A stretch of DNA of 32,972 bases from Thermodesulfovibrionales bacterium (GTDB taxonomy: Bacteria; Nitrospirota; Thermodesulfovibrionia; Thermodesulfovibrionales; Dissulfurispiraceae). This document shows, piece after piece, positions 14,781 to 16,645 of this stretch. Every line of letters begins with the position of its first letter. The first letter of the stretch is position 1. The position numbers and the translations under genes were made by a program. The DNA is taken from NCBI GenBank assembly GCA_026415415.1, contig JAOAHE010000017.1, forward strand, positions 1 through 32,972. Direction: 5' to 3'. A model generated the notes under the pieces. The model saw only the letters and a program-made list of their open reading frames with translations, was not told the DNA's origin and ran no database searches.

Positions 14781-14809
14781 TTGACAGTGAACGATAGTTC
14801 AATTATAAT
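14781..14809 (+). promoter_or_regulatory. Consensus promoter with embedded LexA-type operator
   Basis: TTGACA (14781-14786) and TATAAT (14804-14809) are both perfect and separated by exactly 17 bases. The spacer contains TGAAC-GATA-GTTCA (14788-14801), a perfect dyad matching the GAAC-N4-GTTC core of the Bacillus/Gram-positive-type LexA box. A repressor bound there would block RNA polymerase. Transcription should start at about 14816, directly at the ATG (14817), which lacks a ribosome-binding site, so the mRNA is probably leaderless. Confidence 0.9.
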
Positions 14810-14816
14810 ATATATC

Positions 14817-15398
14817 ATGAAAGAAGAGGTTTTTAAAGAAAGAGTGAATCGGATTATTTACTTTTATCACCAAAAAGGCAGGATGCCTTCTTATTCAGAG
14901 ATTGCAGATATTATAGGGTTTAGATCTAAAAATGCATCGTTTAAGTTTGTAGAAAAGCTCATAGGGCTTAATCTTGTTGAGAAGGATTCAAGAGGAAGGT
15001 TAATACCTAAGAAAATTGCTAACTATATTAAAGTGCTTGGCGTTGTTGAGGCAGGGTTTCCTTCCCCTGCAGAAGAAGAACTTCTTGATACCTTATCTCT
15101 TGACAGATGGTTAATAAACAACCCTTCTTCAACCTTTATGCTTAAAGTTACAGGAGACTCAATGATAGAAGCAGGGATACTTCCAGGGGATATGGTGTTA
15201 GTAGATAGGTCTTTTACTCCTAAAAATGGGGATATAGTCATCGCGCAAGTAGATGGAGAGTGGACGATGAAATATTTCAGCAAAAAAGGAAAGGAAGTGA
15301 CCCTTCATCCTGCAAACCCTAAGTATCAACCTATTAAACCTAAAAGTGAACTTAACATTACCGGAGTAGTAATCTCTGTAATAAGGAAACTAAGATGA
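14817..15398 (+). CDS. lexA: LexA-like repressor with UmuD-type autocleavage domain
   Basis: This 193-residue protein has an N-terminal winged helix-turn-helix of LexA type (about 1-65; GRMPSYSEIADIIGFRSKNAS) and a C-terminal S24 peptidase domain. The cleavage site is A79-G80 in EAGFPSPAEEE, a sequence more like UmuD than classical LexA. The catalytic serine is S115 (TGDSMIEAGILPGD) and the lysine is K152 (EWTMKYF). RecA-stimulated self-cleavage after DNA damage should release repression. The upstream TTG at 14781 is the -35 box of the promoter, so ATG 14817 is the start. A LexA-type box in its own promoter implies autoregulation. It overlaps the Y-family polymerase gene by 4 bp. After cleavage, the C-terminal part could act like UmuD' on that polymerase (inference). 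Confidence 0.92.
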   Translation: MKEEVFKERVNRIIYFYHQKGRMPSYSEIADIIGFRSKNASFKFVEKLIGLNLVEKDSRGRLIPKKIANYIKVLGVVEAGFPSPAEEELLDTLSLDRWLINNPSSTFMLKVTGDSMIEAGILPGDMVLVDRSFTPKNGDIVIAQVDGEWTMKYFSKKGKEVTLHPANPKYQPIKPKSELNITGVVISVIRKLR

Positions 15399-16645
15399 GT
15401 GAACAGCCTCTTTTAATAAACAGCTTTAGCTTAGCTATACTTCATATTGATGCAGATGGCTTTTTCGCCTCTGTAGAACAAGCAGTAAATCCAGTCCTAA
15501 AAGGTAAGCCTGTCGTAGTAGGAAAAGAAAGAGGAATCGCTACAGCTATAAGTTATGAAGCAAAAGCAAGAGGAATAAAAAGAGGGATGCTTTTGCAGGA
15601 AATAAAAAAACTATGTCCTGATGCTATTTTAGTTCCATCTGATTATGAAAAATACTCCTTATTTTCAATAAGGATGTTTGATATTCTAAGGAGATTCTCT
15701 CCTCAAGTAGAAGAATATTCTATAGATGAAGCCTTTGTTGACCTTACGGGCCTAAGAAGGGTATACCATTGTTCTTATGGCGACATAGGGATGAAGATAA
15801 AAGAGACAATAAAGAAAGAACTGGGGATAACAGTATCAGTAGGAATAAGTCTTACGAAAGTGCTTGCTAAAGTAGCATCAGGACATAGAAAACCTGATGG
15901 TCTGACTGTGATACCTGGCAAAGAGGTGCATCTATATCTGAAGGACCTTCCTCTTGAGAAGGTATGGGGGATTGGTCTAAATACCTCAGCATATTGTGCA
16001 AAACTTGGTATTCATACTGCTCTTGATTTTGCAAAAAAAACAGAAGATTTTATAAAGAAATGTTTTTCAAAGCCCTTTTATAAGATATGGCATGAGTTAA
16101 ATGGTAGAAGCGTATATCCTGTAAACCCTGAACCAAAGAGAAATTATAAATCAATAAGCAAAGCAAAGACTTTTGAAGCTACTAAGGAAAAAGAAGTAGT
16201 GTATGGTCAGCTATTGGAAAATCTTGATGGTGCTTTTTTTAAAGCAAGGAGATATGGATTATGCACAAAGAAACTTGTAATTTTTCTTAAGACTCAAGAA
16301 TATCAAGATAGAGGTTGTGAGATAAGTCTTACCGATTACACATTATATTCAGAGGACGTAATTCCTTTCCTAAGAGAGGCTTTTGATCACATTTATGATG
16401 TGAACAAACTTTATAGACAAACAGGGGTGTTCTTGCTTGAACTTACTTCTGTGGAGATGCTGCAGTACTCTCTTTTTAGGAATCCACTCAAAGCAGAAAA
16501 AATAGAAAGACTTTATGATGCTGTTGATAAGTTAAAAGTAAAGTTTGGCAGAGATATTCTTCAGCATGGTGCGGTTTTAAACAAAAAAGAAAAAGAAAAA
16601 AGAAATCAAAAAATTGAGATCCCAGTGTTAAGTATGGATGTTTAG
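15395..16645 (+). CDS. Y-family (DinB/UmuC-like) translesion DNA polymerase
   Basis: This 416-residue error-prone polymerase has catalytic D19 in HIDADGFFASVEQ, D111-E112 in YSIDEAFVDLTG, steric-gate F24, a helix-hairpin-helix thumb (VWGIGLNTSAYCAKLGI), and a little-finger domain beginning at KSISKAKTF. QYSLF at 357-361 matches the beta-clamp binding motif QLxLF, placed as in E. coli UmuC. The N-terminal palm is DinB-like, so the exact subfamily is uncertain. A lysine-rich tail follows. It is coupled by an ATGA overlap to the LexA/UmuD-like gene, forming an umuDC-like unit under the GAAC-N4-GTTC operator and thus probably induced by DNA damage. Confidence 0.93.
   Translation: MSEQPLLINSFSLAILHIDADGFFASVEQAVNPVLKGKPVVVGKERGIATAISYEAKARGIKRGMLLQEIKKLCPDAILVPSDYEKYSLFSIRMFDILRRFSPQVEEYSIDEAFVDLTGLRRVYHCSYGDIGMKIKETIKKELGITVSVGISLTKVLAKVASGHRKPDGLTVIPGKEVHLYLKDLPLEKVWGIGLNTSAYCAKLGIHTALDFAKKTEDFIKKCFSKPFYKIWHELNGRSVYPVNPEPKRNYKSISKAKTFEATKEKEVVYGQLLENLDGAFFKARRYGLCTKKLVIFLKTQEYQDRGCEISLTDYTLYSEDVIPFLREAFDHIYDVNKLYRQTGVFLLELTSVEMLQYSLFRNPLKAEKIERLYDAVDKLKVKFGRDILQHGAVLNKKEKEKRNQKIEIPVLSMDV

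Follow-up and report, generated by a model that had tools for sequence, protein, structure and literature searches.

The nearest studied protein to the repressor considered here is UmuDAb of Acinetobacter, an S24 protein related to UmuD that has an extra DNA-binding domain at its N terminus. It acts as repressor of error-prone polymerases and of its own gene, and cleaves itself at an Ala-Gly bond, in a genus that has no LexA (PMC4807011, PMC11332147); it did not complement umuD, and was dispensable for mutagenesis (PMC4807011). The LexA of Bacillus and Clostridium pairs a winged helix with an S24 domain and has the operator core GAAC-N4-GTTC (PMC4234289). E. coli umuDC, which encodes Pol V, places the gene for UmuD, with its cleavage region, beside that of the polymerase UmuC. 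Features of all these systems meet in one gene pair in the window, the 32,972-nucleotide stretch of Thermodesulfovibrionales DNA analysed here: a two-domain repressor with a UmuD-like cleavage region, the GAAC-N4-GTTC operator core and an adjoining polymerase that is sister to UmuC. The cassette is real, and is a conserved, widespread variation on known SOS parts, in which LexA-type control is combined with a UmuD-type protease domain and a UmuC-type polymerase.

The cassette lies on the forward strand and opens with a −35 element, TTGACA (14,781–14,786), and a −10 element, TATAAT (14,804–14,809), separated by the 17-nt spacer GTGAACGATAGTTCAAT. This spacer is filled by the predicted operator GTGAACGATAGTTCAA (14,787–14,802, with the dyad at 14,788–14,801), for which the consensus is GTGAAC-N4-GTTCAC. 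Seven nucleotides, ATATATC, then lead from TATAAT to an ATG (14,817–14,819) that coincides with the predicted transcription start and is the predicted leaderless start codon, without a Shine-Dalgarno sequence: the best match to AGGAGG in the 20 nt upstream is 2/6, where many neighbouring genes have 5–6/6. Every element put forward in the preliminary description, from the operator nested in a perfect promoter to the ATG at the predicted transcription start, was thus recovered, as was its statement that this ATG has no ribosome-binding site. The −10-to-ATG distance predicts that the 5′ end of the mRNA falls at the start codon, and the leaderless lexA of Mycobacterium tuberculosis provides an experimental precedent (PMC2897130). 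An Rfam search of the window gave no match.

How far this layout is kept was followed through homologues of the repressor. In 60 relatives these fell into two classes, namely class A, with 54–74% identity, and class B, which together with other S24 proteins showed about 28–41%; a class B LexA is absent from most class A genomes, the exceptions being G042 and G046. A scan of GTDB species genomes by protein similarity alone supplied 80 class A loci, the best 80 of more than 500 candidates, with repressors 53–77% identical to the window protein. The dyad stands upstream of the repressor in 81/81 loci, with at least 10 of its 12 arm bases matched in 78 of them; among these 78 the spacer measures 17 nt in 44 and 18 nt in 33. 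TTGACA is matched at five or more of six positions in all but one of the 81 loci and perfectly in most. The start codon follows the −10 element by 5–10 nt in 66 of the 81 (by exactly 6 nt in 47), and hence the proposed leaderless layout is itself conserved across phyla. L091 has a GTG start at the same distance, and some loci, including L023/L139, L095 and L138, have an apparent start further downstream. The DNA upstream of the promoter boxes is not conserved. Since the promoter was kept while the proteins diverged to 53% identity, selective constraint on the nested operator, the strong promoter and the leaderless start is the best reading of these data. The claim that the operator sits inside the promoter therefore extends from the window, where the dyad occupies the spacer, to the same nesting in 80 homologous loci.

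Among the best 80 of more than 500 candidates, most loci come from Nitrospirota, and a Thermodesulfovibrio sp. MAG encodes the nearest named relative (76%) of the repressor. Class A loci also come from MAGs assigned to WOR-3, Lindowbacteria, Omnitrophota, Armatimonadetes, Riflebacteria, Lentisphaerae, Desulfurellales/Hippea and, in several cases, Patescibacteria. Such assignments are not always correct: L087, which bears a Bacteroidetes label, groups with the Nitrospirae locus L086, with a closely similar repressor and an identical promoter, and its contig is probably misbinned. Several other loci are on contigs of 170–400 kb, which makes misbinning less likely for them. A viral origin was considered and rejected. 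The class A set A1 had five remote S24 matches in IMG/VR, a search with the promoter-operator pattern gave two unrelated matches, and in phage and plasmid collections the relatives among the records counted were all below 60% identity.

The repressor (14,817–15,398, forward strand; 193 aa) joins a LexA-like winged-helix N-terminal domain (NTD; residues about 1–64) to a UmuD-like S24 C-terminal domain (CTD). Its predicted self-cleavage site, Ala79/Gly80 in EAGFPSPAEEE (15,051–15,056), aligns with Cys24/Gly25 of UmuD, and the catalytic residues are Ser115 in GDSM (15,159–15,161) and Lys152 (15,270–15,272); all four residues are invariant in 66 nonredundant homologues. In L010 and L011, from genomes G043 and G054, which have no class A polymerase, GYSM replaces the catalytic GDSM. 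The window protein scores above the cut-off of both the NCBIfam LexA model TIGR00498 (133.1 versus 110.95 bits, both domains covered) and the UmuD model PRK10276 (128.1 versus 110), and both models were matched by 20/20 class A members tested; the Pfam LexA DNA-binding model found no match in it. The AlphaFold model shows a two-domain LexA fold (pLDDT 82, low in the cleavage-site linker 70–94) and aligns over its full length with the LexA structures 3jso (DNA-bound), 3k2z and 8trg (RecA-bound); LexA–DNA and LexA–RecA complexes are among its best PDB matches.

Identity values and trees place the two domains differently. The NTD is 23% identical to that of LexA, and the class A CTD has a mean identity of 45% to E. 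coli UmuD versus 36% to LexA, with UmuD the higher in 64 of 66. Trees of the CTD alone, which are unrooted and have rough bootstraps, resolve three clades, class A, UmuD and LexA, with support of 100/98 for the split between LexA and class A plus UmuD and of 97/86 for class A. The repressor CTD thus falls inside neither the LexA clade nor the UmuD clade, and where UmuD has a short N-terminal arm without a DNA-binding domain it has a winged helix of about 64 aa. An operator in the repressor's own promoter, a property of LexA, is present as a sequence feature in 81/81 loci. By the CTD tree, the repressor belongs to a separate clade nearer to UmuD than to LexA, and its DNA-binding domain is LexA-like; the earlier assignment of a UmuD-like cleavage and protease domain holds on the PRK10276 score, the CTD tree and the model alike.

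The repressor stop and the polymerase start overlap in ATGA (15,395–15,398, forward strand), in agreement with the 4-bp overlap first reported. The second gene (15,395–16,645, forward strand) encodes a Y-family translesion polymerase of 416 aa with the Pfam domains IMS and IMS_C. In a quick tree that contains some long rows, class A polymerases form a single clade (support 98) whose sister group is UmuC (95), with DinB separate from it, as are the DinB-like polymerases that adjoin class B LexA; the window polymerase scores 158 with the UmuC model, below the cut-off of 431. That it belongs on the UmuC side therefore stands on the tree. The motif offered earlier as a sign of UmuC, the clamp-binding-type QYSLF at residues 357–361 (16,463–16,477), does not carry this weight: the same motif occurs at the same place in the class B DinB-like polymerases of the same order, and its position was discarded as proof of UmuC identity. 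Class A polymerases share a conserved C-terminal tail, which is shorter in the window protein than in most relatives. No homology of this tail to the UmuD′-binding tail of UmuC was detected; in a profile comparison the alignment was confined to the clamp/helix part.

The polymerase is co-inherited with the repressor. The distance matrices of the two proteins correlate with a Mantel r of 0.90 over 50 pairs, a value reached in 0/2000 permutations. In the 62 loci where a polymerase lies downstream, a distant one in the case of L122, the two genes overlap in 16, are 0–30 nt apart in 16, 31–300 nt apart in 19 and more than 300 nt apart in 11. G043 and G054 have the repressor without any such polymerase.

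The 11 long-gap loci hold 35 ORFs between repressor and polymerase, 31 of them on the operon strand. A variable cargo slot between the two genes was noted at L034, L035, L036, L074, L084, L085, L093, L095, L097, L101, L110 and L123. The Pfam matches of this cargo are nearly all to toxin-antitoxin, restriction-modification, nuclease or related families, namely BrnT, MazE/PemK, HEPN/nucleotidyltransferase, PIN, PDDEXK_3, SfiI, type IIG and ISP enzymes, and DUF5131; the slot also includes a Y1-transposase and TcmP/DUF5131, the latter matching the PADLOC candidate system PDC-M30. The 52 ORFs that flank these loci match metabolic and housekeeping families, among the 25 families listed. Judged by strand and position only, the cargo may be induced by DNA damage. 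On the Comamonas plasmid NZ_CP101744 (L151), a gene for an HTH-S24 protein is followed directly by DUF5131 and TcmP genes, so that the pair known as cassette cargo here sits beside a LexA-like regulator of its own.

The preliminary description regarded the cassette as self-contained, and a scan for further operators and for a second lexA was made in the window genome (1.89 Mb, 92.6% complete). GAAC-N4-GTTC occurs seven times in it, and GTGAAC-N4-GTTCAC at one mismatch or fewer occurs once, at the cassette promoter. There is one copy of recA; no GAAC-N4-GTTC lies upstream of or in the region of recA, and none of the other sites is in a recognisable promoter. The repressor is the sole Peptidase_S24 protein of this genome, in which no second S24/LexA protein was found, and the polymerase is its sole IMS Y-family protein. 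A wider regulon in this genome was accordingly rejected, there being no further operator at this threshold and none at recA; a LexA-type regulon with recA and other repair genes is not what the window repressor has. Self-containment is borne out to this extent: one S24/LexA protein, one operator genome-wide and none at recA.

Control confined to the cassette, which describes the window genome with its one operator, does not hold for all relatives. In a comparison of 296 genomes from the phylum, 40/55 with the repressor contained a perfect GTGAAC-N4-GTTCAC, against 31/241 without it (Fisher p 4e-18), and most of those 40 have one such site. In family f23, by contrast with the window genome, the operator also fronts intI and dinB. 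Genes for integron integrases lie behind this nested promoter at L186:795, L188:2455, L190:2355 and L192:155 (TIGR02249 above cut-off in L188, L190 and L192, partial in L186), and the operator precedes an ORF of about 80 aa followed by dinB at L187:2204, L191:2106, L194:2305 and L200:183, with an ATG close after the −10 element. The small ORF of L187 has no match in Pfam or NCBIfam. A survey of 1,103 intI promoters reported the E. coli-type LexA box only (Cambray et al., PMC3108266). Two further observations were made. In genome G022, three perfect operators (L038:3749, L039:2731 and 2794) belong to a dispersed repeat of intergenic DNA, GTGCCTTTGTTTTGA...GGTGAACNNNNGTTCACTGTGG, after which no gene is evident. 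In addition, an ORF of about 115 aa (..LKPGQPGTK.L..KYGDALLCVR(Y/F)(R/K)YD..) recurs near cassettes and operator-fronted integrases (L075, L102, L186:202-555, L188:1861-2232 and L201).

We propose that the cassette is a self-contained, horizontally spread SOS module. The LexA-type winged helix would let a repressor dimer bind GTGAAC-N4-GTTCAC between the −35 and −10 elements and so keep RNA polymerase from the near-consensus promoter of the repressor's own gene. Once RecA has formed filaments on single-stranded DNA, these would trigger self-cleavage at Ala79/Gly80 by Ser115/Lys152, and the opened promoter would yield a leaderless bicistronic mRNA and, from it, more repressor and the UmuC-like polymerase, for which the freed UmuD′-like fragment is a likely, though unproven, partner. 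Operator binding, RecA-dependent cleavage and leaderless translation are inferred by homology, and relief of repression by RecA-triggered cleavage is by the same token well supported. Leaving the mutasome step aside, we consider it very probable that this is a self-regulated SOS cassette.

Could the promoter be an accident of an AT-rich genome, its operator, boxes and ATG spacing coinciding by chance and the true start lying further upstream? Several other start codons in the window are closely preceded by 5/6 matches to TATAAT, as such a reading would expect; it is contradicted by conservation, since the arrangement persists across loci of many phyla even where protein identity has dropped to nearly 50%. 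Moreover, GAAC-N4-GTTC is rare in the genome, GTGAAC-N4-GTTCAC is unique in it and the nesting recurs in 80 loci, so the window arrangement is not a product of chance, which we regard as an extremely improbable explanation. A second alternative, that the repressor is the main LexA of the organism and governs a wider regulon through degenerate operators, would fit its standing as the sole S24 protein, its score above the LexA equivalog cut-off and the operators before dinB and integron integrases in one related family. It seems unlikely, since the window genome offers no other GTGAAC-N4-GTTCAC at one mismatch or fewer, recA has no GAAC-N4-GTTC upstream, the remaining core sites lie outside recognisable promoters and several relatives have two copies, or a canonical LexA in addition.

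As for the mutasome step, whether the cleaved fragment activates the polymerase as UmuD′ does is uncertain, and we would put it near even odds: the UmuD-like sequence, the shared operon, the co-inheritance (r 0.90) and the lack of any other UmuD in the genome speak for it, whereas the UmuDAb result, the repressors of G043 and G054 without a polymerase, the polymerase tail and the existence of UmuC-like YqjW/UvrX polymerases without any UmuD homologue (PMC6511836) count against it. That the repressor is a LexA analogue only is a serious contender, with a little under an even chance. The UmuDAb precedent (PMC4807011), the two genomes that retain the repressor alone and the cargo genes that sometimes part the two genes favour it; the tight co-inheritance, the frequent gene overlap, the grouping of the polymerase with UmuC in the tree and the want of another UmuD candidate in the window genome do not, and UmuDAb itself adjoins ddrR rather than standing in a umuC operon, whereas the window repressor shares its operon with the polymerase. 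The self-regulated cassette can also be taken in a fuller sense, which we advance tentatively as somewhat less probable than not. One polypeptide would be both SOS repressor and mutasome subunit, the cleavage that opens the promoter also making the UmuD′-like partner; promoter, operator, leaderless start and sensor would move as one unit, which would let the module pass between phyla; and the module would also house toxin-antitoxin and restriction genes under damage-inducible control and, in some genomes, govern integron integrases.

In many little-studied bacteria, a compact gene pair thus encodes both an error-prone polymerase and a DNA-damage switch of its own, a protein partly LexA and partly UmuD in kind, and gives a compact SOS circuit to lineages with a scarcely described damage response, such as Nitrospirota and Patescibacteria MAGs. 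It makes the union of LexA and UmuD functions in one protein a directly testable question. Integron integrases fronted by the operator suggest that integrons are under SOS control through a box that is not of the E. coli type, and a slot for defence and toxin cargo in an SOS operon would join mutagenesis, phage defence and DNA damage under one switch.

We found no published description of this cassette family in the open-access literature, which is no proof of absence, and its distinctness is best seen against the described systems. SOS-controlled integron integrases likewise have the operator of a damage repressor in the intI promoter, but there it is an E. coli-type LexA box (PMC3108266), whereas the f23 relatives use GTGAAC-N4-GTTCAC. 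The Geobacter lexA–imuB-C–polY operon, as far as it is summarised where cited in PMC6511836, is likewise an autoregulated damage operon that encodes both a repressor and a Y-family polymerase and leaves recA outside; its repressor is a true LexA, however, its PolY group and its box differ from those of the window, and it is more closely resembled by the class B LexA–DinB operons (34–38%) of the same order. Unlike the LexA of Bacillus and Clostridium, the window repressor has a CTD nearer to UmuD and a regulon that is effectively one operon. Unlike the window repressor, E. coli UmuD has no DNA-binding domain, and umuDC is under a separate LexA. The UmuDAb type, finally, is defined by descent from UmuD within Moraxellaceae. 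Its NTD is about 10% identical to that of LexA, with no HTH found by BLAST or Pfam, whereas the window NTD is LexA-like; it adjoins ddrR outside any umuC operon, whereas the window cassette keeps the polymerase in the operon; and it acts at an atypical box with the corepressor DdrR, from which, by the published description, the GAAC-N4-GTTC box of the window is set apart.
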